DNA from: Serratia oryzae
GTDB taxonomy: Bacteria > Pseudomonadota > Gammaproteobacteria > Enterobacterales > Enterobacteriaceae
DNA: 64,000 nucleotides
Direction: 5' to 3'
Assembly (NCBI RefSeq): GCF_001976145.1
Contig: NZ_MOXD01000004.1
Coordinates: 124,482 to 188,481, forward strand
In this document: piece by piece, positions 4,168-57,586 of the stretch
Layout: each line of letters begins with the position of its first letter
Position numbering within the stretch: the stretch's first letter is position 1
Program-made: the position numbers and the translations under genes
The notes under the pieces: generated by a model
Database searches by the model: none
What the model was told of the DNA's origin: nothing
Seen by the model: the letters and a program-made list of their open reading frames with translations, nothing else

Positions 4168-4171
4168 AGTA

Positions 4172-5473: not shown

Positions 5474-5481
5474 TTCTGTCG

Positions 5482-5517
5482 CCCCTCACCCCGGCCCTCT
5501 CCCCAAGGGAGAGGGGG
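5482..5517. repeat. Left REP-like inverted end of the 5.5-5.8 kb array
   Basis: CCCCTCACCCCGGCCCTCTC continues into a palindrome with arms CCCTCTCCCC and GGGAGAGGGG. It is the near-perfect inverted counterpart of 5775-5810 on the other side of the tandem array. This is a common enterobacterial intergenic palindrome class; a terminator role for the oxidoreductase transcript is possible. Confidence 0.65.
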
Positions 5518-5534
5518 AAAAGAGGTTAGCGGCC

Positions 5535-5774: not shown

Positions 5775-5810
5775 TCCCCTCTCCCTTGGGGAGAGGGTTA
5801 GGGTGAGGGG
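5775..5810. repeat. Right REP-like inverted end of the 5.5-5.8 kb array
   Basis: TCCCCTCTCCCTTGGGGAGA, then GGGTTAGGGTGAGGGG: the reverse complement of the left end with few mismatches. The pair encloses the 90-bp tandem units, making the whole 5482-5810 block look like one composite element. Confidence 0.65.
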
Positions 5811-5842
5811 AAACCACGTCATTGATTTTAAAAGGAAAAACT

Positions 5843-6208
5843 ATGAAACCATTACTGCTTAAACAAGCGTTACCGGAACTGCTACAAATCGGCAGCGTCA
5901 GCAATCTGGGGGCAACGGTCGTTGCCGGTGAACCTAACGTCGGTGTGGCGATGATCTTCGGTGAACCGTCAGACAACCTGAACTGCGGTGTCTTTAGCTG
6001 TACCCGCGGTGCGTTCGTGATGGAGTATCCGTTTAATGAACATGCCACCGTATGGGAAGGCACTGCCACGCTGACCAACGAAAACACCGGTGAATCGGTG
6101 CATTATCAAGCCGGTGATTCCTGGTTTGTGGAAAAAGGCACCCCGGTACGCTGGGAAATTACCTCCGATCGCTTTGTTAAGCACTATCTGGCGATTGTCG
6201 AAGGCTAA
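5843..6208 (+). CDS. Cupin-domain protein (Cupin_3/DUF861-like)
   Basis: 121 residues starting at the ATG at 5843, preceded by AAAGGAAA. A single small beta-barrel domain with the C-terminal cupin motif region (YQAGDSWFVEKGTPVRWEI, about 88-106) and an upstream strand pair (EHATVWEGTATL). Members of this family are small enzymes or ligand-binding proteins of varied function. The first-motif metal ligands are weak (one His at about 67, one Glu at about 72), so metal catalysis is uncertain. It sits 20 bp upstream of the aldehyde dehydrogenase and is surely co-transcribed with it; a binding or chaperoning role for a pathway intermediate is only a guess. Confidence 0.8.
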   Translation: MKPLLLKQALPELLQIGSVSNLGATVVAGEPNVGVAMIFGEPSDNLNCGVFSCTRGAFVMEYPFNEHATVWEGTATLTNENTGESVHYQAGDSWFVEKGTPVRWEITSDRFVKHYLAIVEG

Positions 6209-6228
6209 CTCTGTAAGAGGGTGATGCG

Positions 6229-7722: not shown

Positions 7723-7725
7723 ACA

Positions 7726-7849
7726 TACCCGTCGTCTTTCAAGCCGCAGCGTTGTTGGCTGCGTGCGTGAACCCCAGGCACTTACCTAAGTAAGCTCCTG
7801 GGGATTAAAGCCCTTGCCGCCTAGCTGCAACTTGAAATCCATAGGGTAT
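7726..7849. repeat. ERIC element (about 124 bp)
   Basis: Starts TACCCGTCGTCTTTCAAG and ends GCAACTTGAAATCCATAGGG, with the inner arms GTGAACCCCAGG and AAGTAAGCTCCTGGGGATT that match the ERIC consensus well. It lies between the convergent aldehyde dehydrogenase and npr genes, the usual transcribed intergenic setting. Confidence 0.85.
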
Positions 7850-7867
7850 TCTGGGATGGGAAGAGGA

Positions 7868-8140
7868 TTAATCCTCATCAAAGCCGGAATTAAACAGCTC
7901 AATCACCGCCGCCAGGGCCTGTTGTTCTTCCGGCCCGGAGGCTTCGATTTCGATCTGGCGGCCTTGGGCGGAATCCAGCATCAGCAGCGCTATGACGCTG
8001 CTGGCTTCCGCTTCGGTGCCGCTGTCATTACGCAGCAGCACTTCGGCGTCAAAACTTTGCACCAGTTCAAACAGCTTCATCGCTGGCCGGGCATGCATGC
8101 CCAGCCGATTTTTGATTTCTACCGTTTGCTTGACCGTCAT
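7868..8140 (-). CDS. npr: Nitrogen-PTS phosphocarrier protein NPr
   Basis: 90-residue HPr-like protein (also called ptsO) that relays phosphate from EI-Ntr (PtsP) to EIIA-Ntr (PtsN). The active-site loop [10 protein letters not shown] places the phosphorylated histidine at position 16, and Ser in the second helix region ([11 protein letters not shown]) corresponds to the HPr regulatory site. The start overlaps the rapZ stop by 4 bp (ATGA), showing translational coupling. It is the last gene of the rpoN-hpf-ptsN-rapZ-npr cluster, as in E. coli. Confidence 0.97.
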
Positions 8141-8991
8141 TGCTTGCGTTTTTCCAGCGTACGGTGGCGTGATTGCACGTTCTTGCCGCGTGAGCGGAAA
8201 TAATCTGCCAGTTGTTCTGCCACATACACCGAACGGTGTTTACCACCGGTACAGCCGATAGCCACGGTCAGATAGCTGCGATTGTTGGTTTCCAGCATCG
8301 GCAGCCACAGCTCCAGATAGCTGCGCGTCTGGTAGATAAAGTTATGCACTTCGGTATGGCGATCGAGGAACGAGGCGACCGGTCTATCCAGGCCGGTCAT
8401 CGGGCGCAATTTCGGATCCCAGTGCGGGTTCGGCAGGAAGCGCACGTCAAACACATAGTCGGCATCAATAGGAATACCGTGTTTGAAGCCGAAAGACTCG
8501 AACACCATGGTCAATTCGCGTTCGCGTTTGCCCAGCAGGCGGGTGCGCAGCATTTCGGCCAGTTCGTGCACCGACATCTCTGATGTGTCGATGATCAGAT
8601 CGGCGCGTGAACGTAAAGGTTCCAGCAAATCGCTTTCTTCATCAATCGCGCTTTCCAGCGACAGATTTTTGGCAGAAAGCGGGTGCAGGCGACGGGTGTC
8701 ACTGTAGCGACGGATCAGGGTATTGCGATCGGCATCAAGGAACAGCAGTTGCGGGGAAAAACTCTCAGGCAACTGGGTCATGGCGTATTCGAATACTTCC
8801 GGTGATTCCGGCATGTTACGCACGTCAATGCTCACCGCAGCAGAGGTATTGCGTTCGGCCAGCGTCTGAGCGAGCTGTGGCAACAGGACCACCGGCAGGT
8901 TATCAACACAGTAAAAACCCATATCTTCCAGCGCCCGTAGGGCGACAGACTTCCCTGAACCGGAACGGCCGCTGACAATCATCAGCACCAT
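8137..8991 (-). CDS. rapZ: RNase adapter protein RapZ
   Basis: 284 residues, the standard length. RapZ binds the sRNA GlmZ and delivers it to RNase E, and is titrated by GlmY, tuning glucosamine-6-phosphate synthase; it also senses glucosamine-6-phosphate. A Walker A motif GRSGSGKS is at about residues 8-15, and the C-terminal RNA-binding domain contains the GCTGGKHRS motif (about 247-255) and a basic tail ([11 protein letters not shown]). Located between ptsN and npr, overlapping npr by 4 bp. Confidence 0.97.
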
Positions 8992-9123
8992 GTGGCAACT
9001 CCCCCTGGCATATCAATGGCGCTTATCGCCACCGTTAGGATCTTTATTATCCAAGCCGCAGCCTGGATGCATTATCAGTAAAACACTAGCTTTTTCATGG
9101 CTAAAAGTCACGCCAACTCGCGA

Positions 9124-9585
9124 TTACTCAGTGATAATCTGATAGAGCTCTTCATCGGTCTGTGCTGCGCGCAGGCGGCGGCAGACGGTTTTGTCTGCCA
9201 GCCGTTTGGCGACCAGCGACAGGGTATGCAAATGCGTTTTGCATTGATCGGCGGGCACCAGTAAGGCAAACAGCAGGTCGACCGGCTGGTTATCAATGGC
9301 GTCAAAGGCGATGGGTTCTTCCAGACGGATAAACACGCCAACGGCACGCAGGGTGTCCTCTTCCAGTTTGCCATGGGGGATCGCGATACCGTTGCCGATA
9401 CCGGTGCTGCCCATGCGTTCACGGGTGAGAACGGCATCAAACACCACCTGCGACGGCAGGTTGAGCTGTTTAGCGGCCAATTCGCTGATAATCTCCAACG
9501 CCCGTTTCTTGCTGGTGCAGTGTACCGAGCTCTTGGTGCACTCGATGTTTAACACCGAGCTTAATTGCATTATTTCGTTGTTCAT
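9124..9585 (-). CDS. ptsN: PTS EIIA-Ntr regulatory protein
   Basis: 153 residues, about ten shorter at the C-terminus than the E. coli protein, which ends after YQIITD; here translation stops after YQIITE. EIIA-Ntr is the terminal phosphoacceptor of the nitrogen PTS and controls potassium transport (TrkA, KdpD) and other targets by its phosphorylation state. The phosphorylated His is in AIPHGKLEED (H71). It lies 240 bp downstream of hpf and 132 bp upstream of rapZ. Confidence 0.97.
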   Translation of the reverse strand: MNNEIMQLSSVLNIECTKSSVHCTSKKRALEIISELAAKQLNLPSQVVFDAVLTRERMGSTGIGNGIAIPHGKLEEDTLRAVGVFIRLEEPIAFDAIDNQPVDLLFALLVPADQCKTHLHTLSLVAKRLADKTVCRRLRAAQTDEELYQIITE

Positions 9586-9728
9586 CTCATCTTCACTTAA
9601 AAAACTCTCATTAAGCGCTTTATCGGGCTTTTTGCCGCCAGCCAGTGATGCGCTAAGTGGCTGGCAAACTGTCTGCTCCGATGACGCCTGATGAATCGCT
9701 TTTTTCGCCGGTTTAACCCTGATGGCGG

Positions 9729-9762
9729 GTCGGCGCGCCCCTTTCAGGGGGAGCGTGCCGAC
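9729..9762. repeat. Long hairpin between hpf and ptsN
   Basis: GTCGGCGCGCCCC and the GGGG..GTGCCGAC arm form a long, GC-rich stem with a short loop. No T tract follows on either strand, so it is not a classical terminator; it could stabilise upstream mRNA or partly uncouple ptsN from rpoN-hpf. The 240-bp hpf-ptsN gap otherwise shows nothing I recognise. Confidence 0.45.
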
Positions 9763-9825
9763 GTTGCCTGGTAGCCAATGGACTACAATTTGAGCGGCGT
9801 TCGCTGAGGCGATCGCGGCTCAATG

Positions 9826-10113
9826 TCAGTGCTGCTTTAGTTTGTCTTTATGTTTGTTCAATTGACGCGCCAGTTTATCGATCAGGCTGTCAATCGCGGC
9901 ATACATATCCTCTTTTTCCGAGGTGGCGTGCAACTCGCCTCCATTCACGTGCACCGTTGCTTCCGCAATCTGCTGCACTTTTTCCACACTGAGAACGACG
10001 TACACCTGATTAATGCGATCAAAATACTGTTCGAGTTTGGCGAACTTATTGTTCACGAACTGACGCATTGGTTCAGTGATTTCGATGTGGTGTCCGGTAA
10101 TGTTGAGCTGCAT
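9826..10113 (-). CDS. hpf: Ribosome hibernation promoting factor HPF (short form)
   Basis: 95 residues from the ATG at 10113, which has AGAAGGAAG upstream; the longer frame from 10140 would add nine unconserved residues and overlap rpoN. HPF stabilises 100S ribosome dimers in stationary phase together with RMF. The beta-alpha-beta fold is seen in QLNITGHHIEITEPM and the basic helix near the C-terminus (KLARQLNKHKDKLKQH). It is directly downstream of rpoN. Confidence 0.97.
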   Translation of the reverse strand: MQLNITGHHIEITEPMRQFVNNKFAKLEQYFDRINQVYVVLSVEKVQQIAEATVHVNGGELHATSEKEDMYAAIDSLIDKLARQLNKHKDKLKQH

Positions 10114-10136
10114 AATGTCTTCCTTCTCTGTAGAGG

Positions 10137-11570
10137 TCAAATCAACTGTTTGCGCTGATTTGACGGCGGGATGGACAAAGACTCTCGGTACTTGGCAACG
10201 GTGCGCCGTGCCACCATGATCCCCTGATCGGAAAGCATCGTGGCCAGCTTGCTGTCGCTAAGCGGTTTGGCGGGGTTTTCCGCCGTAATCAATTTCTTCA
10301 CTAACGCCCGGATCGCCGTAGAGGAGGCTTCGCCACCGCTGTCGGTATTCACATGGCTGGAGAAGAAATACTTCAATTCGAAAATACCACGCGGGCTGTG
10401 CAGGAACTTCTGCGTCGTCACGCGCGAGATCGTCGATTCGTGCATCTCCACGGCCTGGGCGATATCGGCCAGCACCATGGGTTTCATAAACTCTTCCCCC
10501 TGTTCAAAGAAATCTTCCTGCTGCTCGACAATGCAGCGGGTAACTTTGAGCAGAGTATCATTACGGCTTTCCAGGCTTTTGATCAGCCACTTTGCTTCCT
10601 GCAGGTTGCTGCGAATAAACTGGCCGTCGGCATCGTTACGCACGTTATTGCCGAGCGCGGCATACTGCTGGTTGATCTTCAGGCGCGGGATGCTGTCAGT
10701 ATTGAGTTCAACCTGCCATTTACCTTGCACCTTACGCACCAGGACATCCGGGATCACATACTCGGATTCACCGGTATTGATCGACTGACCAGGGCGCGGA
10801 TCGAGCGACTGGATCAGCAGCATCGCTTCTTTCAGTGTATCTTCTTTTGAGCGGGTTGTTCGCATCAGGCTGCGAAAGTCGTGATTGGCCAGCAAATCTA
10901 GGTGCTCGCTGACGATCAGGCGCGCCTCCGCCAGATAAGGCGTGTCTTTGGGGTATTGGGAAAGCTGGATCAGCAGGCAATCACGCAGATCGCGCGCCGC
11001 CACGCCGATAGGATCGAAGCGCTGTACGCGTTTCAAGACCGCTTCGACTTCATCCATGGTGACATTGTCGTCACCGATGCTTTCCAGAATGTCTTCCAGC
11101 GGCACGGTGAGATAGCCGGTATCATCAACGGCATCGACGATCGAGGTGGCAATCGCTGCGTCGGTATCGGAAAACGGCGTTAAATCCACCTGCCACATCA
11201 GATAGTCCTGCAGCGTCTGGGTGGTTTCTCCCTGGTAGACCGGCAATTCGTCATCGCTGTAATCGATGCTGCTGCCGGAGGGGGTGCCTGCGGTGTAGAT
11301 CTCATCCCAGGTGGCATCCAGAGGCAGCTCTTCGGGCATATCCTTTTGTTCCAGCGCCTCACGGGTGTCCAGCGCTTCGGTCTCCGGGCGTTCTTCGGTA
11401 TCAATTTCTTCGTGCAGGTCGGTTTGTTCAAGCAGTGGGTTGCTTTCTAACGCCAGTTGGATTTCCTGCTGGAGCTCAAGCGTGGACAGCTGCAACAGGC
11501 GTATCGCCTGCTGTAGCTGGGGAGTCATCGCCAATTGTTGGCTGAGCCTGAGTTGCAAACCTTGCTTCAT
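10137..11570 (-). CDS. rpoN: RNA polymerase sigma-54 factor
   Basis: 477 residues. Region I (glutamine/leucine-rich, [18 protein letters not shown]) binds enhancer-dependent activators; an acidic region II (about 45-115) follows; the C-terminal DNA-binding part contains the RpoN box [10 protein letters not shown] (about 454-463) that reads the -24 promoter element. It directs nitrogen and other alternative metabolism genes. It follows lptB after 30 bp and precedes hpf, the conserved enterobacterial order. Confidence 0.98.
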
Positions 11571-11600
11571 AATCTTCAGGTTACTTCCGTTAGCTAGAAC

Positions 11601-12326
11601 CTAGAGGCGGAATTCTTCGCCCAGATAAACGCGTTTCACTTGCTCATCGGCCAGAATAGCATCTGGTGTGCCATGGGCAATCAATTTGCCTTGGCTGACG
11701 ATGTAGGCGCGTTCACACACGTCCAGCGTTTCGCGCACGTTGTGGTCAGTGATTAATACCCCCAGACCGCTGTTACGCAGGTGCTCGATGATTTTCTTGA
11801 TATCGATAACGGAAATCGGGTCAACCCCGGCAAAGGGTTCATCCAGCAGGATGAATTTCGGGTTGGCGGCCAGCGCACGGGCAATTTCCACGCGGCGGCG
11901 TTCACCACCGGACAGTGACTGGCCCATGCTGTTGCGCAGATGGGAAATATGGAATTCCTCCATCAGTTCGACGGCGCGATCGGCACGCTGCTCGCTGGTG
12001 AGATCGTCACGGATCTCCAGCACCGCCATCAGATTGTCGTAAACGCTCAGGCGACGGAAGATCGAGGCTTCCTGCGGCAGATAGCCGATACCCCGGCGCG
12101 CACGGGCATGCAGCGGTAGAATACTGATGTCTTCTTCATCGATGGCGATACGCCCAGCATCGCGCTGAACGATACCCACCACCATATAGAACGTGGTGGT
12201 CTTGCCGGCGCCGTTGGGGCCCAGCAGGCCGACGATTTCGCCAGATTTCACTTTCAGGCTGACGTCTTCGACGACTTTGCGGCCTTTATAGGCTTTCGCC
12301 AGATTTTCTGCGATGAGTGTTGCCAT
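11601..12326 (-). CDS. lptB: LPS export ABC transporter ATPase LptB
   Basis: 241 residues, cytoplasmic ATPase that, with LptF and LptG, extracts lipopolysaccharide from the inner membrane and pushes it along the LptC-LptA bridge. Walker [10 protein letters not shown] (about 36-44), signature LSGGERRR, and Walker B with the catalytic Glu in [13 protein letters not shown] are all intact. It follows lptA by six bases in the kdsD-kdsC-lptC-lptA-lptB operon. Confidence 0.98.
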
Positions 12327-12332
12327 AAGGGA

Positions 12333-12872
12333 TTAGTTACTCTTCTTTTGAGCGTTTTTGTCTTGCAACTGTGAGGGCACCAGGACCGTTGTCACACGTT
12401 TGCCTTTATCGCTGAATGCCTGCATCTGCTGCTGTTGCACCAGATAAGTGATGCGATCGCCCTGCACATTGCTGTCCAGCTGTTCCAGATAGGCATTGCC
12501 GGTGAGTGTGACCAATTGGGTTGCGACGTCGTAGCGGACTTTCTGCGCATGGCCTTTCACCGGTTTGCCGTTATCCTGCATCTGGTAGAACGTGACCGGA
12601 TTACCAAAGGCTTCAATATAGGTTTTGTTCTGATCGCCATCGGGGCGCGTGACGACCACTTTATCGGCTTTGATCTCGATGGTGCCCTGCCTGATCACCA
12701 CGTCGTCAGTAAAGGTGCTGACGTTGCTCTGCATGTCTAATGACTGTTTCAGCGAATTGATATTCACCGGCTGATCGGCGTCGGATTTCAACGCCATAAC
12801 CGGAGCGCTGGCGGTCAAAACGAGGCTGGCGATCAATAGATTACGGAGTTGTCTTTGGGTTTTGAATTTCAT
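12333..12872 (-). CDS. lptA: LPS transport periplasmic protein LptA
   Basis: 179 residues from the ATG at 12872 (MKFKTQRQ). It has a cleavable signal peptide ending near PVMA and then the OstA/LptA jellyroll strands that make the periplasmic LPS bridge. The start lies 32 bp inside the end of lptC, the same overlap found in E. coli, which supports this start over the longer frame from 12893. Confidence 0.96.
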   Translation of the reverse strand: MKFKTQRQLRNLLIASLVLTASAPVMALKSDADQPVNINSLKQSLDMQSNVSTFTDDVVIRQGTIEIKADKVVVTRPDGDQNKTYIEAFGNPVTFYQMQDNGKPVKGHAQKVRYDVATQLVTLTGNAYLEQLDSNVQGDRITYLVQQQQMQAFSDKGKRVTTVLVPSQLQDKNAQKKSN

Positions 12873-13419
12873 AGTTGGTTTTGACCTTATCAATCAGCTC
12901 AGCGGTTTTGTCCCGCAGGTTTCCACGCATTTTCATGCCGTTAGAAGTAAAGTTCGTCCCGAACAGGGTCACTTCATCATCGGAGTAAACATCCTGCGTG
13001 ACCAGATTAACCCGAGCGTTATCCGTTTTGATTTTTTCTAGCTGCGAGGTGGTGGTTAGGCTGTTCACCTCAACGTGACCGTACAGATACAGCATACGAT
13101 CCTTGGTCAGTTTGGCGCGATCGGCGCGTACCGACCACGTGGCCACGGCATCATCATTAAACAGCGTCATTACCGGCTGGGTGAACCAGCTTAACTCATC
13201 GGCGGTGTAATATTTCACCTCTTCGGCCACCAGTTTATAGTTCAACTTACCGGTTGGGCTGTATACCACCGTTACCGTGTGTTGACTCTGATAGGTCGGA
13301 TCTTGGTTATTGATCGGTGCCGAGCTGCTTTCATCGCTGAAGTCAGCCATATTCCAGCCGATCAGCGCCAGTACGATCACCGCCAGTATCAGGGTGATCC
13401 AGAGTTTGGTTTTACTCAT
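12841..13419 (-). CDS. lptC: LPS export protein LptC
   Basis: 192 residues. A single N-terminal membrane anchor (about 7-25, LWITLILAVIVLALIGW) is followed by a periplasmic jellyroll domain that receives LPS from LptB2FG and hands it to LptA. Overlaps kdsC by 4 bp upstream and lptA by 32 bp downstream, so the operon is tightly coupled. Confidence 0.96.
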   Translation of the reverse strand: MSKTKLWITLILAVIVLALIGWNMADFSDESSSAPINNQDPTYQSQHTVTVVYSPTGKLNYKLVAEEVKYYTADELSWFTQPVMTLFNDDAVATWSVRADRAKLTKDRMLYLYGHVEVNSLTTTSQLEKIKTDNARVNLVTQDVYSDDEVTLFGTNFTSNGMKMRGNLRDKTAELIDKVKTNYEIQNPKTTP

Positions 13420-13970
13420 ATCGACAGCCCTTTGGCCCCTTCCAGTTTGTTCTGAGCCAAAAGAATCATGTCACACAGTTCACGCACGGCACCACGTCCA
13501 CCGGAGATGCGCGTGACGTAATGAGCCCGCGGCGTCAGCAGCGGATGCGCATCCGCCACGGCAACCGCCAGGCCGACTTCAGCCATCACCGGCCAGTCGA
13601 TCAGATCGTCGCCGATATAAGCCACGTGTTCGGGTGTTAACGACAGTTTATCCAACAGTTCACGGAAGGCCAAAAGCTTATCGGATTGCCCTTGATACAG
13701 ATGGGTGATATCCAAGGTTTTTGCCCGATCTTCCAGCAGCTTGGCTGAACGGCCGGTGATGATGGCGACTTCGATACCAGAGGTTTTCAGGCAGCGGATG
13801 CCGTAACCATCGCGCACATTGAAGGCTTTCAGCTCTTCACCCTGGTTGCCCATGTAGATCAGGCCGTCTGACAGCACGCCGTCGACATCACAAATCAGCA
13901 GGCGGATCTTTCCGGCTCGTGCCATCACGTCTTCAGTCACCGGCCCGTAGCAGGTTTCAACCAGACTCAT
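13416..13970 (-). CDS. kdsC: 3-deoxy-D-manno-octulosonate-8-phosphate phosphatase KdsC
   Basis: HAD-family phosphatase that removes phosphate from KDO-8-phosphate during LPS core synthesis. Motif I is DVDGVLSDG and motif III/IV contains YIGDDLIDWPVM. I favour the ATG at 13970 (184 residues) because AAAGGAA lies eight bases before it; an in-frame ATG at 13988 that overlaps the kdsD stop (TAATG) would add six residues (MKGTQR) and cannot be excluded. Overlaps lptC by 4 bp. Confidence 0.95.
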   Translation of the reverse strand: MSLVETCYGPVTEDVMARAGKIRLLICDVDGVLSDGLIYMGNQGEELKAFNVRDGYGIRCLKTSGIEVAIITGRSAKLLEDRAKTLDITHLYQGQSDKLLAFRELLDKLSLTPEHVAYIGDDLIDWPVMAEVGLAVAVADAHPLLTPRAHYVTRISGGRGAVRELCDMILLAQNKLEGAKGLSI

Positions 13971-13987
13971 TCTTTGGGTTCCTTTCA

Positions 13988-14974
13988 TTAGACAACGCCG
14001 GCACGCAGCATGTCATGCATATGTACCACACCCAGCAACTGGTCGCCATCAGCAACCAGCACGGCGGTGATATGGCGTTGCTGCATCAGATTGAGCGCAT
14101 CGACCGCCAGCATGTTCGGACGCACGCGAATACCCCCTGGGGTCATCACATCGGCGATTTTGGCGTTATTGAGATCGATACCCATATCGAAAACCCGGCG
14201 TAAGTCACCGTCGGTGAAGATCCCGGCGATTTTCATCAGATCGTTGCAGATCACGGTCATGCCGAGGTTTTTGCGGGTGATCTCCAGCAGGGCATCGCGC
14301 AGAGAGGCGTCGGCGCTCACCTGCGGGATCTCATCGCCGCTGTGCATGATATCGCTGACGCGCAGCAGCAGGCGGCGACCCAGTGCTCCACCAGGGTGCG
14401 ACAGGGCAAAATCTTCTGGTGTAAAACCGCGTGCTTTCAGCAGTGCCACCGCCAAAGCATCACCCATCACCAGCGTGGCGGTGGTGCTGGTGGTGGGAGC
14501 CAGACCAAGCGGGCAGGCTTCCTGCGGCACCTTGATGCACAGGTGTACTTCCGCCGCTTTGCCCATTGAGCTTTCCGGGTTATTGGTCAGGCAAATCAGT
14601 GGGATCTGCTGGCGTTTCAGCACCGGGATCAGTGCCAGAATCTCATTAGATTCACCGGAGTTGGAGATGGCCAACACAATGTCCTGCGCTGATACCATGC
14701 CCAGATCGCCGTGGCTGGCCTCTGCCGGGTGTACGAAAAATGCCGGGGTGCCGGTGCTGGCCAGCGTGGCGGCAATCTTGCAGCCGATGTGGCCGGATTT
14801 ACCCATGCCCATCACCACGACTTTGCCACAGCAGGCGGCGATCATTTCGCAGGCACGGGTGAAGTCGGTGTTGATGTACTGATCGAGCTGGGCTAGGCCT
14901 GCACGCTCAATCTGAAGCACTTCCTTACCTGCCTGCTGAAAATCAAAGCCCGGTTGCCACTGAATGTTCGACAT
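13988..14974 (-). CDS. kdsD: D-arabinose 5-phosphate isomerase KdsD
   Basis: Converts ribulose-5-phosphate to arabinose-5-phosphate, the first committed step to KDO. 328 residues from the ATG at 14974 (MSNIQWQPGF), which matches the length of the E. coli enzyme; three further ATGs upstream (14980-14989) are in frame. It has an N-terminal SIS sugar-isomerase domain (GMGKSGHIG, ISNSGES) and a C-terminal pair of CBS domains (about 210-328). Follows yrbG directly. Confidence 0.95.
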   Translation of the reverse strand: MSNIQWQPGFDFQQAGKEVLQIERAGLAQLDQYINTDFTRACEMIAACCGKVVVMGMGKSGHIGCKIAATLASTGTPAFFVHPAEASHGDLGMVSAQDIVLAISNSGESNEILALIPVLKRQQIPLICLTNNPESSMGKAAEVHLCIKVPQEACPLGLAPTTSTTATLVMGDALAVALLKARGFTPEDFALSHPGGALGRRLLLRVSDIMHSGDEIPQVSADASLRDALLEITRKNLGMTVICNDLMKIAGIFTDGDLRRVFDMGIDLNNAKIADVMTPGGIRVRPNMLAVDALNLMQQRHITAVLVADGDQLLGVVHMHDMLRAGVV

Positions 14975-14989
14975 ACTCATTCCCATCAC

Positions 14990-15970
14990 TTAGCCAAAAA
15001 ACGTGCTGAAAGGGTTAAACAACAACACCGCAAGATACGCAATAAAGCCACATAATAACAGAGCACCCGCCAGATGGCCGATACGATGTTTACGCCTGAG
15101 GCACAAGGCGCTGAGCAGGATGCTGGCTGCCAGCATCACCCAGTAATCGCGCTGGAAGGCGGCAGGATCGATCCTGCCCGGCGATAGCAGCGCGGGGATG
15201 CCCAGGACGATCACCAGGTTAAAAATGTTGGAGCCGATGATATTACCAATCGCCATATCATCTTCGCCCTTTAGTGCTCCGGCAATGGTGGTGGCCAGTT
15301 CGGGTAGGCTGGTGCCGATGGCAATAATCGTCAGGCCGACCACCAGTTCACTCAGGGCGAAGTAATGGGCGATCACCGTGGCGTTGTCGATGATCATCTT
15401 CGAAGAGAGCGGCAGGATGATAAATGCCAGCACCAGCCACAGTATGGCCACGGTGTTGCTGCTGTCCTGTGGCAGTTCGGCGAGTTGTTCCATGGTCAGG
15501 CTGTCATTGCCTTCACGCTGGGCCTGCCGGGCGATTTTCAGCATCAGCAGAATAAAGCCGGTGGCGGCAGCCAGCAGCAGCACACCGTCCAGCCTGCTGA
15601 GGCTGTTGTCCATCAGCACAAAACCGCATATCAGGGTGACAGCCAACATCAGCGGCAGTTCGCGCCGCAGGATGTCAGAATGGGCCGCCAAAGGGTGGAT
15701 CAGCGCAGCAACCCCCAGGATCAATAAAATATTGGTGATGTTGGAACCCAATACGTTGCCAACGGCCATATCGGTCTGGCCATTCAGCGCCGCAGTGACC
15801 GAGACGATCAGCTCCGGCAGGGAAGTGCCGATACCGACAATGGTCATACCGATAATCAGCGGCGGTACGCCCAACGAGCGGCTAAGCACCGCCGCACCAT
15901 AAACTAATCGATCCGCTCCATACACCAGTAAAAATAAACCAACGATTAACAATACGATCGCGAGAAACAT
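14990..15970 (-). CDS. yrbG: Calcium/sodium:proton antiporter family protein YrbG
   Basis: 326 residues with about ten membrane segments arranged as two inverted halves. Each half carries the hallmark alpha-repeat of the Na+/Ca2+ exchanger family: GIGTSLPELIVS with GNVLGSNITN, and AIGTSLPELATT with GNIIGSNIFN. It is the first gene of the kdsD-kdsC-lptCAB-rpoN run and is divergent from mlaF. The physiological ion is not certain. Confidence 0.93.
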   Translation of the reverse strand: MFLAIVLLIVGLFLLVYGADRLVYGAAVLSRSLGVPPLIIGMTIVGIGTSLPELIVSVTAALNGQTDMAVGNVLGSNITNILLILGVAALIHPLAAHSDILRRELPLMLAVTLICGFVLMDNSLSRLDGVLLLAAATGFILLMLKIARQAQREGNDSLTMEQLAELPQDSSNTVAILWLVLAFIILPLSSKMIIDNATVIAHYFALSELVVGLTIIAIGTSLPELATTIAGALKGEDDMAIGNIIGSNIFNLVIVLGIPALLSPGRIDPAAFQRDYWVMLAASILLSALCLRRKHRIGHLAGALLLCGFIAYLAVLLFNPFSTFFG

Positions 15971-16411
15971 GCAGGGTCCTTTATTAGGTATAATGCCCCT
16001 GGTTTTTCAGGTTGCAGTGTCGTGGGTTGTACACGTTCACCCCGCTGGTGGGGCACGGACTTACCGCCTGGCTACAACTTGAAATCCATTGGGTATTATC
16101 CCGGTTCGTTGGTAAAGCCGAAATTCGGCCATCTTGCTTGCCCATCGTTGTGCAAAGTTAAGCTGCAGCAACGGATTTTCCCGGTTAAAGGTTGAACAGT
16201 TTCATTTTTTTGCGTTATTTCTTAATTTTGACTGCCTGAAGCTTAAAAGTAAAACCAATGGCATCATTGGTAGCAAAATGGCGGTAAGTTTTTGTAAAGA
16301 TGAGACGCATTGCGTCTGTTGCTTTAACATCACGGATAGATTTAGAGCCTGCCCAACCACCCTCATTAAGGCTGGCCCTTAGCAAGAGCGACCGGTAAAG
16401 GATCAATAAAC
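15971..16411. other. Divergent yrbG/mlaF intergenic region with a degenerate ERIC-like repeat
   Basis: 441 bp without a gene. 15990-16097 resembles a diverged ERIC: it has inner CACCCCGCTGGTGGGG arms, the TACAACTTGAAATCCA end and a terminal GGGTATT like the elements at 1.8 and 7.7 kb. 16100-16411 is AT-rich and should hold the mlaF promoter; I could not pick a reliable -35/-10 pair. Small ORFs here have no coding features I trust. Confidence 0.5.
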
Positions 16412-17227
16412 ATGCACCAGAAGGCAGATAATCTGGTCGAAGTGCGCGGTATGAGCTTCTCTCGCGGCGATCGGCTGATATTTGAAGACATCAATCTGAC
16501 GGTTCCCCGCGGCAAGGTGACAGCGATCATGGGGCCGTCGGGGATTGGGAAAACCACGCTATTACGCCTGATCGGTGGTCAGTTAGCGCCGGATCGCGGC
16601 GAGATTTGGTTTGATGGTGATAATATTCCCGCCTTATCGCGCCATCAGCTGTATGAATCGCGCAAGAAGATGAGCATGCTGTTCCAATCGGGAGCGCTGT
16701 TCACCGATCTGACGGTGTTTGAAAACGTGGCTTTTCCGCTGCGTGAACACAGCCGCCTGCCGGAGCTAATCCTGCGCAGCACGGTGCTGATGAAGCTTGA
16801 AGCCGTGGGGCTACGCGGTGCCGCTGAGCTGATGCCAAACGAGCTTTCTGGCGGGATGGCACGGCGTGCCGCACTGGCGCGGGCGATTGCGCTGGATCCG
16901 GCGTTGATCATGTTCGACGAGCCCTTTGTCGGCCAGGATCCCATTACGATGGGCGTGTTGGTGAAGCTGATTGATGAGCTGAATCATGCGCTGGGTATGA
17001 CTTGCATCGTGGTTTCACATGATGTGCCAGAGGTATTGAGCATTGCTGATTACGCCTATATCGTGGCGGATCACCATGTGATTGCCGAGGGTACGGCAGC
17101 GCAGTTGCAGAACAATCCTGATGCACGCGTGCGTCAGTTTCTGGATGGTATTGCCGACGGGCCGGTACCCTTCCGCTATCCGGCCAGTGATTATCAGACT
17201 GAGCTTCTAAGGAATGGGAGTAAATAA
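16412..17227 (+). CDS. mlaF: Phospholipid ABC transporter ATPase MlaF
   Basis: 271 residues. ATPase of the MlaFEDB inner-membrane complex that maintains outer-membrane lipid asymmetry by moving phospholipids to or from the periplasmic carrier MlaC. Walker [10 protein letters not shown], signature [10 protein letters not shown] and Walker [14 protein letters not shown] are intact, and the C-terminal extension that docks MlaB is present. First gene of mlaFEDCB. Confidence 0.97.
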
Positions 17228-17231
17228 TTTC

Positions 17232-18014
17232 ATGTTTTTACAGGCGTTAGCGTCGTTAGGGCGCCGTGGCATCAACACCAGCGCCGCTTTTGGGCGCGCC
17301 GGGCTGATGCTGTTCCATGCGCTGATCGGGCGCCCGGAACCGCATAAGCAGTGGCCGCTGCTGATCAGGCAACTTTACAGCGTGGGTGTGCAGTCGTTAT
17401 TGATCATCATGGTTTCTGGCGTGTTTATCGGTATGGTTCTGGGGCTGCAAGGGTACATTGTTCTGACCACCTACAGCGCAGAAGCCAGCCTTGGCATGAT
17501 GGTGGCGCTGTCGCTGCTGCGTGAGCTGGGGCCGGTCGTGACCGCCCTGCTGTTTGCCGGCCGTGCCGGTTCTGCCTTGACCGCCGAGATCGGCTTGATG
17601 AAAGCCACAGAACAGCTCTCCAGCCTGGAAATGATGGCGGTCGATCCGCTGCGGCGCATCGTTGCTCCGCGTTTCTGGGCGGGATTAATCAGTATGCCGC
17701 TGCTGACGATCATTTTTGTGGCTGTCGGGATCTGGGGCGGATCGGTAGTGGGCGTGGACTGGAAAGGGATCGACAGCGGTTTCTTCTGGTCGGCGATGCA
17801 AGGGGCGGTTGAATGGCGCAAGGATTTGCTCAACTGCCTGATTAAGAGCGTGGTATTTGCCATTACCGTGACCTGGATTGCGATCTTCAACGGCTACGAT
17901 GCGGTGCCGACTTCTGAAGGGATTAGCCGGGCAACGACAAGGACCGTGGTACATTCGTCACTGGCGGTGTTGGGATTGGATTTTGTGCTGACTGCACTGA
18001 TGTTTGGGAATTGA
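17232..18014 (+). CDS. mlaE: Phospholipid transporter permease MlaE
   Basis: 260 residues starting at [10 protein letters not shown] (ATG 17232), which aligns with the E. coli start; the ATG at 17214 overlaps the mlaF stop and adds unconserved residues. Five to six membrane segments; conserved core [24 protein letters not shown] (read in two parts) typical of MlaE/YrbE permeases. Forms the dimeric membrane core of the Mla complex. Confidence 0.96.
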
Positions 18015-18018
18015 TTCG

Positions 18019-18561
18019 ATGCAAACGAAGAAGAGTGAAATCTGGGTTGGGGCGTTCATGCTGATTGCACTGTGTGCCATCGTCTTCCTCTGCCTGCAGG
18101 TGGCAAATATTAAGTCGATCGGTAATGAGCCGACTTACCGTATCTATGCCACCTTTGATAATATCGGTGGCTTGAAAGCGCGTTCACCGGTGAAGATCGG
18201 TGGGGTGGTGATTGGCCGGGTAGCGGAGATCTCGCTCGATCCGAAAACCTACACGCCGCGTGTGGCGCTGGATATTCAGAGTAAATATAACCAGATACCA
18301 GACACTAGTTCATTGGCGGTGCGTACCTCCGGCCTATTGGGGGAACAATATCTGGCGTTGAACATCGGTTTTGAAGATCCTGATATGGGCACCACCATTC
18401 TGAAAGATGGCGGAACCCTTCAGGACACCAAGTCAGCCATGGTGCTGGAAGATTTGATCGGCCAGTTCCTGTACAAGAGTGGCAGCCAGGATAGTGCGGG
18501 CAAACCGGCGGCTGCGGCACCGGCAGCCGATGCTGCTCCACAACCTGCCCCAAGTCATTAA
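18019..18561 (+). CDS. mlaD: Phospholipid-binding MCE protein MlaD
   Basis: 180 residues from the ATG at 18019 ([11 protein letters not shown]). One N-terminal membrane anchor (about 10-30) and a single MCE domain (about 38-117) that forms the hexameric ring through which lipid passes on the periplasmic side of MlaFE. The C-terminal tail is Ala/Pro-rich ([14 protein letters not shown]). Four bases after mlaE. Confidence 0.96.
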
Positions 18562-18575
18562 TAGAGGAAGCCTGC

Positions 18576-19205
18576 ATGTTTAAACGTTTACTGATGGTGG
18601 CTCTGCTGGTGGTTGCTCCGCTAGCGTCTGCGGTTGATCAGACCAATCCTTATAGCCTGATGCAGGATGCCGCGGATAAAACCTTCGCGCGCCTGAAAAC
18701 CGAACAGCCTAAAATCAAACAGGATCCCAACTACCTGCGCACCATCGTGCATGAGGAATTGATGCCGTTTGTGCAGGTGAAATACGCCGGTGCGCTGGTA
18801 TTGGGCCGTTACTACAAAGAGGCCTCCCCGGCACAGCGTGAGGCTTATTTTGCCGCTTTCCAGGCTTATCTGGAGCAGGCGTACGGCCAGGCTCTGGCGA
18901 TGTATCATGGCCAGACTTATCAGATTGAACCGGCGCAGCCTCTGGGAGATGCCGACATTGTCGCCATTCGTGTGACGATCATCGATAACGCGGGCCGCCC
19001 ACCGGTGCGCTTGGACTTCCAATGGCGAAAAAACAGCAAGACCGGCTATTGGCAGGCGTATGACATGATTGCCGAAGGCGTCAGCATGATCACCACCAAG
19101 CAGAATGAGTGGGCATCGACTCTGCGTACCAAAGGGGTTGATGGCCTGACTCAACAGTTGCTGGTTGCGGCGCAGCAGCCAATCACCTTGGATCAGAAAA
19201 ACTGA
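18576..19205 (+). CDS. mlaC: Periplasmic phospholipid carrier MlaC
   Basis: 209 residues. Signal peptide ending near PLASA (about residue 19), then a Tol_Tol_Ttg2-type fold that binds a phospholipid and shuttles it between the MlaA-porin complex and MlaFEDB. Overlaps mlaB by one base (TGATGG), so the last two genes are coupled. Confidence 0.96.
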
Positions 19206-19507
19206 TGGCCGAAGCATTAAGCTGGGAATCACAACCGCCAATCCTGATTCTGCGCGGCGAACTGACGCGCGAAACCCTGCTGCCACTTTGGCAACAGCGT
19301 GAGGCACTGGTGGCGGATAAAGCCATCGTGGACGTGGCTCAGTTGCAGCGCGTTGACTCCTCCGGCCTGGCATTGCTGCTGCATTTGCGCGAACAGCAGC
19401 GCCAGCGGGGTGTCGAATTAAAAATTTCTGGCGTGACAGAGCGGTTGCAAACGCTGATTGCGCTTTACAATCTGCAAGCGATAATGCCTGCAGATACCGT
19501 CGCTTAG
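19205..19507 (+). CDS. mlaB: Mla complex STAS-domain subunit MlaB
   Basis: 100 residues, a single STAS domain with the conserved VDSSGLALLLHL motif (about 49-60). MlaB binds the MlaF C-terminus and is needed for assembly and activity of the transporter. Last gene of the operon and followed by an intrinsic terminator. Confidence 0.95.
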   Translation: MAEALSWESQPPILILRGELTRETLLPLWQQREALVADKAIVDVAQLQRVDSSGLALLLHLREQQRQRGVELKISGVTERLQTLIALYNLQAIMPADTVA

Positions 19508-52073: not shown

Positions 52074-52850
52074 CTACTTATTTCCTATTGCCACGCTTTC
52101 CAAATGCACTACCGGATTTTCGGCAAACAGATAACGATCGGCGTTGTATTCGAAATCGTCGGTGGTGGCATTGAACAGCATTTGCTTGGTGTTTTCCAGG
52201 TGCTGCCACATCGCCAGTTTGGCGGCATGGGGATCTTTGCGGATCAACGCCTTGAGGATCTCATCGTGATCGTCACACCAACTGGCGATCGAACGATCGT
52301 CAATGTGTTCATGCAGTTTGATCCAGTACGGGTTGTTCACCCTCTGTGCCCACATTTTCTCGACAATCGTAGCCAAAGCGGTGTTTTGGGTAGCCAGAGC
52401 CACCTGAACGTGGAACTTGAGATCCCACTCGGAGTCACGGAAACGATCTTCCTTGCGCGCCTGTTCCTGGATCTCCATCAGGTTAACAATATCCTGTTTG
52501 GTCACCTGAGTAGCGGCGAATTCGGCGATGTTGCTTTCGATTAACTGGCGTGCCTGCAGCAGCTCAAAAGGGCCTGAGGTGGCAAATTCAAGGCTATCGC
52601 CCGGTATCACCAGGTTTTTCTGCTGGTTGGAGATCACGTGGATACCTGAGCCTTTGCGCACTTCAACATAGCCTTCGACTTCCAGCATGATGATCGCTTC
52701 GCGTACCACGGTGCGGCTTACGTTCATTTCTTCAGCAATGTAGCGCTCAGCCGGCAGCTTATCACCCACCGGATAAACGCCGCTTTCAATGCGATGTTTG
52801 AGTTTGGCGGCCAACTGCTGATAAAGGCGTCTGGTTTCAGTGAATTCCAT
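52074..52850 (-). CDS. exuR: Hexuronate regulon repressor ExuR (GntR family)
   Basis: 258 residues. N-terminal winged HTH (about 8-75, [27 protein letters not shown]) and a FadR-type all-helical effector domain (about 95-230). Represses hexuronate uptake and catabolism until galacturonate/glucuronate derivatives bind. Intact although its target exuT is broken. Confidence 0.96.
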
Positions 52851-52968: not shown

Positions 52969-54265
52969 TTAACTGCAGGCGTTTGCTGTCTGCAGAGATT
53001 CTGGTGGGGGTTCTGCCGCCGGGCGATTTTGCAGCACGGTCCAGATCACAATTGCCCCCAGGATGTCGAACACCGACAGAGCCGCGAACAGCGGGCTGAA
53101 GCCCAGCGTATCAGCCAGTGCACCCACCACCAGGGCAAACAGGGTGCTGGCTGTCCAGGCGGCCATACCCGTCAGGCCGTTGGCCGTGGCGACTTCGTTG
53201 CGGCCAAACACGTCTGAGGAGAGGGTGATCAGTGCCCCAGACAGTGACTGGTGGGCAAAACCGCCGACGCACAGCAAGGCTATGGCGGCATAAGGGCTGG
53301 TAAATAAACCGATCATTCCTGGGCCAATCATCAGCAGTGCCCCACGGTGACAACCAGTTTGCGTGACACGATCAGGTTCACTTTAAAGTGTTTCTGGAAG
53401 AATGGCGGCAGATAGCCCCGCATGATGCAGCCGAGATCGGCAAACAGCATCGGCATCCAGGCAAACATAGCGATTTCTTTCAGGTTAAAGCCATAAGCTT
53501 TAAACATGAACAGTGGGATCCAGGCGTTGAATGTCCCCCAAACCGGTTCAGCCAGAAAACGTGGCAGTGCGATGCCCCAGAACTGCCGGTTACGCACGAT
53601 CTGCCAGGCAGACATCTTTTTGGCATTACTGGTCCGGTGCTGCGCCTCTTGCCCTTCGAGGATGTAGGTACGTTCTTCACTGCTGAGTTTTTTCTGGTCT
53701 TTCGGGTGTTTATAGAAAATAGCCAGCAGATGGTCCAGATTAGGCTCAGAATCCCGACGATGATAAACGCCAGTTTCCAAGTGTGGGCTACGATGGCCCA
53801 CACCACCAGAGGTGGGGCCAACATGCCGCCGATAGAGGAACCCACGTTGAAATACCCTACGGCGATAGAACGCTCTTTGGCAGGATACCACTCACTGGTA
53901 GCCTTTAGCCCGGCTGGGGTCATGGCGACTTCGGCCATCCCGGCCGCACCGCGGGCCAGGGCCAGGCCGCCCCAGCTATTGGCCAGCGCGGTGCCCATAC
54001 AAAACAGGGCCTACAGAATGGCAAACATGGCATAACCGATCTTGGTACCCAGCACGTCCAGTATGTAGCCTGCAACGGGTTGCATGACGGTATAACAGGC
54101 GGAATAGGCGGCAACAATATAGGAATATTGCTGCGTGGTGATATGTAACGTGCCTTCCAGAGTTGGAGCTGCGACCGCCATTGCATTGTGGGTCAGGTAA
54201 CCGAGCATGGTACCAATAGTAACCAAGCCGATCATATACCAGCGTAACCCTTTAATTTTACGCAT
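52969..54265 (-). pseudogene. exuT: Hexuronate (galacturonate/glucuronate) transporter, three inactivating lesions
   Basis: The full set of ExuT segments is present in order, but in three frames. From ATG 54265 the frame reads well to codon 84, then an amber codon (TAG, 54011-54013) replaces the Trp of the E. coli protein, after which the same frame resumes. A one-base deletion near 53720 (WLIFYKHP region) shifts the frame, and a second one in a C run at 53340-53343 (VTVGALLMI region) shifts it again; the last part ends normally at 52969. ExuT is an MFS uptake permease for hexuronates. Adjacent long genes are intact, so scattered sequencing error is unlikely, though the homopolymer site alone could be. 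Confidence 0.92.
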
Positions 54266-54450
54266 CCAAAACCTCTCCCAATCTTGAAATTTTTGCCACC
54301 GACAAACCCGTGGCGCTTCATGTCGAGATTCCCTTTCTTTTATCTTTGCCAGTATTCCTCCTACTGGCGCTTTGCTTGCACATTATCATAGTGAGTTGCT
54401 GAAAAAGGGTGCAAGGCGGCGAGACGATAACTTGTCATACAGGTTTAAAA

Positions 54451-54466
54451 GTTGAGTGATATCACA
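54451..54466. promoter_or_regulatory. CRP-like site in exuT/uxaC region
   Basis: GTTGA-GTGATA-TCACA: right half perfect, left half three of five. The same bases also fit an FNR box loosely (TTGAG-TGAT-ATCAC). CRP activation of uxaCA and exuT is known in E. coli. Confidence 0.45.
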
Positions 54467-54608
54467 AAAGGCGTGCATCAATTAGGCAATAATAAGTTGC
54501 AAATTGTTACGCCATTTTGCTGCCTTTTCGCCCTAAAAATAGCTTTTCAGCCGCTTTAAGCCACGTATTGACTGAGGAACTGGGTGAAATATTGCTGGAC
54601 GGTCAATT

Positions 54609-54626
54609 AAATTGGTGTGATAACTT
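54609..54626. promoter_or_regulatory. Candidate ExuR operator upstream of uxaC
   Basis: AAATTGGTGTGATAACTT matches the ExuR/UxuR palindrome at 13 of 18 positions, with a perfect left half AAATTGGT, 48 bases before the uxaC start. Confidence 0.45.
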
Positions 54627-54674
54627 CACGAATTAACTGCAAGGCTAGCCAAGAGACAAGGTGAGGAACCCGAT

Positions 54675-56087
54675 ATGGCCACGTTTTTGAGCGATGATTT
54701 TTTGTTGGACAGTGAATTTGCCCGCCGCCTTTATCATGATTATGCTGCGGATCAGCCAATTTTCGACTATCACTGCCATCTGCCGCCGCAGCAGATTGCC
54801 GAAAACACCCGTTTCAAAAACATGTATGATATTTGGCTGAAGGGCGATCACTATAAATGGCGGGCGATGCGCACCAATGGGGTGGCAGAGCGTCTGTGTA
54901 CCGGCGATGCTTCCGATCGTGAAAAGTTTGATGCCTGGGCCGCGACGGTGCCGCATACTATTGGTAACCCACTGTATCACTGGACGCACCTGGAACTGCG
55001 CCGCCCGTTTGGTATCACCGGCAAACTGTTGTCACCAACGACGGCAGATGAAATCTGGCAGCGCGGTAACCAACTGCTGGCGCAAGACTCGTTCAGCGCG
55101 CGCGGCATCATGAAGCAGATGAAAGTGAAGATGGTCGGGACGACCGACGATCCGATCGACGATCTGCGCCATCATAAGACGATTGCTGCCGACGGCAGTT
55201 TCGACATCAAGGTATTACCAAGCTGGCGGCCGGATAAAGCCTTCAACATTGAAGCGCCAGGATTCAACGACTACCTGCAACAGTTGGAAGCCGCGGCGGA
55301 TACGGTGATCGCGCGTTTCAGCGATCTGCGCGACGCGCTGAAAAAGCGCATGGACCACTTTGCGGCGCACGGCTGCAAGGTGTCCGATCACGCGTTGGAT
55401 GTGGTGGTTTACGGTGAAGCCGATGAAGCCACGCTGGACACCATTCTGGCACAGCGGCTGAGCGGCAAGATGCCAACGCCGCAGCAGAGCGCGCAGTTCA
55501 AGACCGCCGTGCTGCTGTTCCTGGCTAGCGAATACCAGCGCCGCGAATGGGTGCAGCAATATCACATCGGTGCGCTGCGTAATAACAACAGCCGGATGTT
55601 TGAAACCATTGGCCCGGATATCGGCTTTGACTCGATTAACGATCAGCCTTTGGCCGAGCCTTTGTCACGCTTGCTGGATGCGCAGGCGAAGCAAGGCAAT
55701 CTGCCAAAAACCATCCTTTACTGCCTCAATCCACGTGATAACGAAGTGCTGGGCACCATGGTCGGTAACTTCCAAGGGGAAGGTACGCCGGGCAAGATGC
55801 AGTTCGGTTCTGGCTGGTGGTTCAACGATCAAAAAGACGGCATGCAGCGCCAGATGACGCAGTTGGCCCAGCTTGGGCTGCTCAGCCGCTTTGTCGGCAT
55901 GCTGACCGACAGCCGCAGTTTCCTGTCTTACACGCGCCACGAATACTTCCGCCGCATCCTGTGCCAGATGATTGGCCGTTGGGTAGAGGATGGAGAGGCT
56001 CCGGCGGATATCGCGTTGCTGGGCGAGATGGTGAAAAACATCAGCTTCGACAATGCTAAACAGTATTTCGCTATCGAATTGGCGTAG
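54675..56087 (+). CDS. uxaC: Glucuronate (uronate) isomerase UxaC
   Basis: 470 residues, amidohydrolase-type TIM barrel converting glucuronate to fructuronate and galacturonate to tagaturonate. Metal-binding [13 protein letters not shown] near the N-terminus is intact, as are [10 protein letters not shown] and the C-terminal [16 protein letters not shown]. Eight bases before uxaA, so one operon. Confidence 0.98.
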
Positions 56088-56095: not shown

Positions 56096-57586
56096 ATGCA
56101 AAGCATCATAAAAATTCACTCGAAAGACAATGTGGCGGTGGCACTGCGTGATTTGGTCGCCGGAGAGACGCAAGCGCTAGGCGAACAGACGATTACGCTG
56201 GCGCAAGCGGTGGCGCGCGGGCATAAATTTGCTCTTGAGCCGATTGCTGCGGGTGACATGATCGTCAAATACGGTTTGCCCATTGGCCATGCGTTAGTGG
56301 CGATTGCGCCAGGCGAGCACATTCATTCGCAAAATGCCAAAACCAACCTGAGCGATCTCGACAGCTACCAGTATCAACCGGAATTTCAGACCTTACCGGC
56401 GCAGGCGGCGGATCGTGAAGTGCAGATCTACCGGCGCAACCAGGGTGAAGTGGGGATCCGCAATGAGTTGTGGATCATCCCCACCGTGGGCTGTGTTAAC
56501 GGCATTGCCCGCCAGATCCAGCAGCGTTTTCTTAAAGAAACCGATGATGCGCAGGGGATCGACGGCGTTCACCTGTTCAGCCACCCGTTTGGCTGTTCGC
56601 AGCTCGGCCAGGATCATGAAAACACCCGCACCATGCTGCAAAATATGGTGCGTCACCCTAACGCGGGTGCGGTGTTGGTGATCGGGCTAGGGTGTGAGAA
56701 CAACCAGGTTGACGCATTCCGCACCACGCTCGGTGAGTTTGACGAACAGCGCGTGCATTTTATGGTTTGCCAGCAGCAGGATGATGAAGTTGAGGCCGGG
56801 CTGGAGCATTTACATCAGCTATACCAGGCTATGCGCGACGATCGTCGTCAGCCGGGTAAGCTCAGCGAACTGAAGTTTGGCCTGGAATGCGGCGGTTCGG
56901 ATGGCCTGTCCGGCATCACCGCTAACCCGTTGCTGGGATGCTTCTCGGATTATGTGATCGCCAATGGCGGTACGACGGTACTGACGGAGGTGCCGGAAAT
57001 GTTTGGTGCCGAACGTATTCTGATGAGCCGCTGCCGTGATGAAAGCACGTTCGAAAAAACCGTCAGCATGGTTAACGATTTCAAGCAGTATTTTATCGCC
57101 CACGATCAGCCGATCTACGAGAATCCGTCGCCGGGTAACAAAGCGGGTGGCATCACCACTCTGGAAGAAAAATCCCTCGGTTGTACGCAAAAAGCCGGGC
57201 AGAGCCAGGTGGTGGACGTGCTTAAATACGGCGAGCGCCTGCGTCGGCCAGGGTTGAACCTGCTGAGTGCGCCGGGTAACGACGCCGTGGCTACCAGCGC
57301 TTTGGCCGGTGCCGGTTGTCATATGGTGCTGTTCAGCACCGGGCGAGGCACGCCGTACGGTGGGTTTGTGCCAACGGTGAAATTGGCGACCAACTCGGAG
57401 CTGGCGGCGAAAAAACCGCACTGGATCGATTTCGATGCCGGGCAACTGATCCACGGTGTGCCGATGGATGAAATGCTGGAGCAGTTTGTTGAGCTGATTG
57501 TCGATATTGCCAATGGCAAACCGGCACGTAACGAAGCCAATGACTTCCGCGAACTGGCAATCTTTAAAAGCGGGGTAACGTTGTAA
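56096..57586 (+). CDS. uxaA: Altronate dehydratase UxaA
   Basis: 496 residues; dehydrates D-altronate to 2-keto-3-deoxygluconate. An N-terminal SAF domain (about 1-85) precedes the large catalytic domain with HLFSHPFGCSQLGQDHENTR, CGGSDGLSGITANP and the Cys-containing VLVIGLGCENNQ, all usual. uxaB (tagaturonate reductase) is not in the window. Confidence 0.98.
   Translation: MQSIIKIHSKDNVAVALRDLVAGETQALGEQTITLAQAVARGHKFALEPIAAGDMIVKYGLPIGHALVAIAPGEHIHSQNAKTNLSDLDSYQYQPEFQTLPAQAADREVQIYRRNQGEVGIRNELWIIPTVGCVNGIARQIQQRFLKETDDAQGIDGVHLFSHPFGCSQLGQDHENTRTMLQNMVRHPNAGAVLVIGLGCENNQVDAFRTTLGEFDEQRVHFMVCQQQDDEVEAGLEHLHQLYQAMRDDRRQPGKLSELKFGLECGGSDGLSGITANPLLGCFSDYVIANGGTTVLTEVPEMFGAERILMSRCRDESTFEKTVSMVNDFKQYFIAHDQPIYENPSPGNKAGGITTLEEKSLGCTQKAGQSQVVDVLKYGERLRRPGLNLLSAPGNDAVATSALAGAGCHMVLFSTGRGTPYGGFVPTVKLATNSELAAKKPHWIDFDAGQLIHGVPMDEMLEQFVELIVDIANGKPARNEANDFRELAIFKSGVTL

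Follow-up and report, generated by a model that had tools for sequence, protein, structure and literature searches.

Probable recent loss of the hexuronate transporter gene exuT beside intact uronate catabolic genes in Serratia oryzae

The exu locus of Serratia oryzae raises a question of supply, since the gene for its hexuronate transporter appears broken whereas the regulatory and catabolic genes around it are open: has exuT truly decayed, and if so, which route still feeds the isomerase and the dehydratase? We analyzed a 64,000-nucleotide stretch of the genome, referred to here as the window. In agreement with the initial annotation, all three neighboring frames are open in the window: exuR (52074..52850, minus strand) for a GntR-family repressor of 258 amino acids scoring above the NF008571 cut-off, uxaC (54675..56087, plus strand) for a uronate isomerase of 470 amino acids scoring above the NF002794 cut-off, and uxaA (56096..57586, plus strand) for an altronate dehydratase of 496 amino acids with SAF and GD_AH domains. 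The exact name uxaA is our assumption from synteny and general knowledge of the locus. The alignment of the divergent exuT/uxaC intergenic region (54266..54674) contains conserved blocks, which are also kept in a genome of the same genus that lacks exuT (G003, see below). In Klebsiella, the exuT, uxaC, uxaB, and uxaA genes are repressed by ExuR, according to the available part of one study (PMC8612250), and the accessible text of a review names ExuT as the bacterial transporter of galacturonate and glucuronate (PMC6353982). At the other end of the window (1-19400), 20 ORFs have no match in the compared 80 kb of the nearest genome, and synteny holds from about 19.5 kb on; judged from sequence, this part may be an island or a rearrangement border.

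The exuT gene occupies 52969..54265 on the minus strand and represents a pseudogene of a hexuronate transporter from the ACS family of the MFS, with three disabling lesions recognized by alignment, ORF reading, and tblastn. Read from 54265, its frame extends for 84 codons and ends at TAG (54013-54011); this in-frame amber at codon 85 (54011..54013) stands where all 28 aligned relatives have Trp. The alignment further places a one-base deletion at the junction between 53721 and 53720 (53720..53721) and a second one at 53340..53343, the exact position of which is ambiguous in a run of G; all of these sites are read on the minus strand. Both the coordinates and the nature of the lesions claimed in the initial annotation, one nonsense and two frameshifts with the amber replacing a conserved Trp, are thereby borne out against the 28 relatives, which were picked from 83 intact loci. 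The gene measures 1297 bases, versus 1299 in the loci of two relatives (L002 and L005). Two missense changes at residues invariant in 28 of 28 relatives were mapped on the same strand, namely R26H (54188..54190) and G283R (53418..53420). The former converts the TM1 arginine of the ACS family to histidine; it aligns with Arg residue 47 of chain 6e9n_A of the D-galactonate transporter DgoT, and we take this arginine to be a substrate contact.

For comparison, we used 84 loci in which exuT was matched at E 1e-50; L003 and L012 among them belong to the same contig. The other 83 contain one open frame of 430-437 codons and none of the S. oryzae lesions, and the longest open frame at the S. oryzae locus is 186 codons. 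A single frame of about 430 codons, as expected of a functional 12-TM MFS transporter, is therefore missing, as it is split into three pieces that occupy three different frames when compared with the sister genome and that are 90, 92, and 94% identical to the protein of the nearest relative (tblastn). The gene is nevertheless the counterpart of ExuT from the exuR-exuT-uxaCA locus of Enterobacterales by orthology and synteny, lying in the same position between exuR and uxaC and with the same neighbors as in G006. It differs from intact ExuT in having no frame longer than 84 codons from the start and in the change of the TM1 arginine and other invariant residues. The name ExuT itself is one that we assume from synteny with ExuR and from general knowledge; an intact relative scores 388.8 bits with the NCBIfam model TIGR00893, below the cut-off of 395. 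A second intact copy was ruled out by a tblastn search of the S. oryzae genome, in which the best other match is 43% identical. The literature searched yielded no report on exuT in S. oryzae, and no mention of it was noticed in the published study of this species (PMC6831795).

Loss of constraint was assessed by assigning changes either to the S. oryzae branch or to that of the nearest genome (G006, from the same genus and with intact exuT), which was used as sister, with four other members of the genus as outgroups. On the S. oryzae branch, exuT has accumulated 20 nonsynonymous changes (the amber included) and 50 synonymous ones, versus 5 and 48 on the G006 branch; the respective missense to synonymous ratios, 19:50 and 5:48, differ at p=0.02. 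The raw ratio on the S. oryzae branch does not differ significantly from that of exuR, uxaC, and uxaA taken together (p=0.15), nor from that of six neighboring genes (p=0.06; the terC-like gene among them has a single outgroup only). The distribution of the missense changes is more telling: on the S. oryzae branch, 9 of 19 in exuT fall at codons invariant in relatives other than G006, whereas exuR, uxaC, and uxaA together have 1 of 25 at such codons (p=0.001). In exuT of G006, none of the 5 missense changes does so. Because of this difference, the decay of exuT looks real. Based on ten changes at invariant codons including the amber, the neutral divergence since inactivation is estimated at 1.5% (95% interval 0.7-2.8%); judged by the excess of missense changes, about 13% of the S. 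oryzae branch (95% interval 4-25%) was neutral. Over this estimated period, 0.9 nonsense changes are expected in exuT under an assumed transition and AT bias, and one is observed. Thus, the S. oryzae gene combines lesions not present in orthologs, relaxed selection, and no second intact copy, as a pseudogene does.

A locally wrong draft, with exuT intact in the strain itself, would account for the broken frame in another way. The genome is a single draft assembly of 81 contigs, both indels involve one base, and one of them lies within a short run of G. However, the remaining lesion is a substitution, and missense changes at invariant codons are in excess in exuT over its three neighbors. We also compared ORFs across the region. 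Of the 72 ORFs retained in an 80-kb part of G006, 41 were matched in the window and five of these were flagged, four with stops only upstream of the likely start; exuT is the sole internally broken ORF of the 41. In the reverse comparison, 41 of 61 window ORFs were matched in G006 and five were flagged, including one antisense to exuT, two with stops only ahead of the first Met, and two with two stops each that look like spurious frames. In two further stretches compared with the sister, 11/11 and 7/8 ORFs are clean, the single flag being a NUDIX-like protein whose frame meets a stop about 12 residues short of the end, and in a third stretch, compared with G003, 12 ORFs were matched with one flag, in an upstream extension. 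Therefore, the three exuT lesions are not part of generally bad sequence, and sequencing error, rejected as the leading idea in view of the substitution lesion, the invariant-codon missense, and the clean surrounding ORFs, is very improbable. Restoration of a working ExuT by recoding, through amber suppression combined with frameshifting, can be practically dismissed, given that three separate events would be required and that the protein would still carry missense changes at the TM1 arginine and at eight other invariant residues.

The genus provides a second case. In G003, exuR, uxaC, and uxaA are present in order and exuT is cleanly deleted (L141:8086-8645), with about 90 bases in place of the 1.3 kb in the window and a recognizable remnant of the exuT 5' flank; exuT was not found elsewhere in this genome (one contig of 5.49 Mb). 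A seven-gene tree groups S. oryzae (G000) and G006 against G003 and the rest with UFboot 100 and SH-aLRT 99.9, and the support for the grouping of S. oryzae with G006 in a three-gene tree is 90. Because G006 has an intact exuT, the losses in G003 and S. oryzae are independent, unless G006 regained the gene. The claim of real decay in the initial annotation is hence strengthened by a second loss in the genus, in addition to lesions confined to one of the compared loci and to constraint lost in exuT but not in its three neighbors. The nonsynonymous to synonymous ratios on the G003 branch are low for uxaC (4:28) and uxaA (5:31). For exuR, the ratio of 10:17 is above that in the other genomes tallied; nothing is drawn from it because two unrelated genes show similar ratios (13:16 and 23:21).

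Similar arrangements were observed more widely. An exuT match at E 1e-50 is missing in two of the 80 named uxaC loci. In Brenneria sp. 4F2 (L037:2746-5410), exuR adjoins uxaC without an intervening exuT, and the 9.4-kb locus yielded no match to uxaA; in Pantoea sp. IMH (L038:720-3577), the interval between exuR and uxaCBA contains genes read as a TRAP permease and its binding protein. These two strains and G003 resemble S. oryzae in keeping exuR and uxaC without a functional exuT; however, they have a clean deletion or a replacement, with TRAP-like genes filling the place in Pantoea, whereas S. oryzae has a decaying copy. In the wider family, 63 of 119 genomes have an ExuT match at E 1e-60, and four besides S. 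oryzae have a stop in the match: G032 carries an intact exuT-like copy together with a second one split into two pieces, G034 (a genome 49% complete) has a match with five stops, and G041 and G054 have one stop each, perhaps terminal, in an otherwise full-length match. Pseudogenization of exuT is already on record in Salmonella enterica subsp. diarizonae ST432, of which S. oryzae is a further instance: in the accessible part of that study, exuT is a pseudogene in ST432 and is kept in the compared lineage ST439 (PMC8549363). Both cases, as far as that text goes, are lineage-specific pseudogenizations of exuT in an enterobacterium; however, in the sheep-adapted ST432 serovar exuT is one of ten such genes, whereas in S. 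oryzae, a species known from rice stems and lake water (PMC6831795), it is the only broken one among the 41 matched window ORFs.

The pathway behind the transporter is open beyond the exu locus, as tagaturonate reductase UxaB, mannonate dehydratase UxuA, and fructuronate reductase UxuB have open frames that score above their NCBIfam cut-offs. The oligogalacturonate lyase Ogl (PL22, PF14583) is encoded in all seven genomes of the genus, and in S. oryzae the genes near ogl encode KduD (above its cut-off), a GPH-like symporter (below the NCBIfam cut-off), and some components of an ABC importer for sugars. The published gene set of S. oryzae J11-6T, taken here as the source strain of the window, includes KdgM, TogMNAB, and TogT (PMC6831795); the presence of KdgK, KdgA, TogMNAB, and PehX in this species is likewise taken from that paper. 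According to the model proposed for strain S32 (ANI >99% to J11-6T), TogMNAB and TogT take up the oligomers, which PehX and Ogl then break down to monomers in the cytoplasm (PMC6831795). The suggestion in the initial annotation that the isomerase and dehydratase have an alternative feed thus finds candidates both in the published importers and in the genes clustered around ogl.

Another candidate feed is a cluster on contig C53 of S. oryzae (302740-309776; L115:4741-11777), which encodes a regulator read as DeoR-type, a 374-aa protein, an ACS transporter 28% identical to ExuT, a GH2 beta-glucuronidase-like enzyme, and a 530-aa protein. The best solved match of the GH2 protein is the beta-glucuronidase 6ncy (E 7.8e-184), and the alignment keeps the N-x-K motif, which we take as the mark of GH2 beta-glucuronidases. 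At 242.5 bits, the protein is below the cut-off of 544 of the NCBIfam beta-glucuronidase equivalog NF007538, and it is close to 7vqm as well, which bears the name of a GH2 beta-galacturonate enzyme. The S. oryzae enzyme might supply UxaC with glucuronate freed inside the cell. Its gene looks acquired because it was found in one of seven genomes of the genus (E 1e-40; in S. oryzae only and not in G003) and in 6 of 295 genomes of the family, S. oryzae included (E 1e-100). No PDB match was obtained for the 530-aa protein and no Pfam (E 1e-5) or NCBIfam (E 1e-10) match for either it or the 374-aa protein, the best PDB match of the latter being unusable (E 0.5). A separate cluster in G003 (L163:6851-13337; contig C1, about 1530850-1537340) encodes a second PL22 oligogalacturonate lyase, a 531-aa protein sharing 40% identity with the 530-aa protein of S. 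oryzae, and proteins read as oxidoreductase-like, sugar-binding-like, and isomerase-like. One speculative and rather unlikely reading would connect these observations: ExuT would have been lost repeatedly in Serratia living on polymeric pectin, with the scavenging of monomers abandoned and UxaC-UxaB-UxaA kept for the galacturonate and glucuronate that imported oligomers yield within the cell, and the family of about 530 residues shared by the extra clusters of both exuT-less genomes may be a new uronide-processing enzyme.

Several other carriers were considered, as the initial annotation had named kdgT and another ExuT-like MFS protein among the genes to be sought. A KdgT-family protein is encoded on contig C1; however, although it passes Pfam, its 290.6 bits are far below the kdgT equivalog cut-off of 453.8, and KdgT was rejected as the obvious replacement. 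The gene (L117:4692-8661) adjoins genes read as DUF1537-like, PdxA-like, and DeoR-like, which suggests an operon for four-carbon acid sugars rather than for KDG uptake. ExuT-like MFS proteins do occur in S. oryzae, namely the 28% paralog on C53 and the 43% paralog on C71. An extra ACS protein of G003 (C1:5428987) was rejected as a hexuronate carrier, as it is flanked by genes read as 2-dehydro-3-deoxygalactonokinase and an aldolase.

We estimate at roughly 0.7 the probability that exuT is a genuine, recently inactivated pseudogene and that the uxa genes are kept for galacturonate and glucuronate arising inside the cell from imported oligomers or glucuronides. In this scenario, selection on exuT would have stopped, after which the nonsense change, both single-base deletions, and nine missense substitutions at invariant sites would have accumulated. 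Galacturonate and glucuronate would still arise inside the cell and keep ExuR, UxaC, and UxaA useful. They would probably stem from pectin oligomers that TogMNAB/TogT bring in and PehX/Ogl cleave, and possibly also from glucuronides that enter through the C53-cluster MFS protein and are cleaved by the GH2 enzyme of that cluster. We infer that UxaC is supplied through one or both of these routes and that the cell can do without the uptake of monomers through ExuT.

The reading that competes most closely, which we hold to be possible but somewhat improbable, is that another transporter (the C71 or C53 ACS protein, a TRAP system, or other) took over monomer import and made ExuT redundant. Strains S32 and J9 of S. 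oryzae grow on D-galacturonate and D-glucuronate as well as on polygalacturonate (PMC6831795); therefore, either exuT is kept there or another importer works, and their growth on both free hexuronates calls for caution before the species is declared unable to import them. We lean slightly toward the lesions being common to S32 and J9, and if they are, monomer import would continue by another route. The two ExuT paralogs are stop-free, and the genes read as TRAP-type that occupy the exuT position in Pantoea sp. IMH offer a precedent, as does Salmonella, for which the available part of one study proposes that a TRAP system for hexuronates works together with a putative transporter of the UhpC/ExuT type (PMC7660916). 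However, the C71 paralog adjoins a GH31 glycosidase and a regulator read as LacI-type, and it occurs in six of the seven genomes of the genus, four of them with intact exuT. Alternatively, the whole hexuronate pathway may be decaying with exuT first, leaving uxaC, uxaA, and exuR idle and merely not yet broken. The inactivation might indeed be young enough that uxaC and uxaA have simply not yet decayed, as some 13% of the branch is too short for many lesions in genes that have been idle for less time. This is doubtful, however, in view of the missense changes in uxaC, uxaA, and exuR, which avoid invariant codons (although most of the branch predates the loss), the open frames of UxaB, UxuA, and UxuB, the low ratios for uxaC and uxaA in G003 without exuT (its deletion being undated), and the published S32 model, which routes oligomer-freed galacturonate through the uxaC/uxaA branch (PMC6831795).

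Gene-presence predictions of growth treat ExuT as the gate to hexuronate use, and in S. oryzae this gate is defective, with the downstream pathway still open. The value of the case lies in clear genetics combined with a simple growth test; no match was found in the literature on the growth of exuT mutants on galacturonate, and S. oryzae can serve as a simple natural experiment that would distinguish a supply of UxaC by imported oligomers alone from one by another carrier. That exuT was lost twice independently among seven genomes, although two cases are few, hints at a repeated switch in the uptake of pectin sugars. The loss of exuT fits a bacterium that is able to import larger pectin fragments and to cut them inside the cell.
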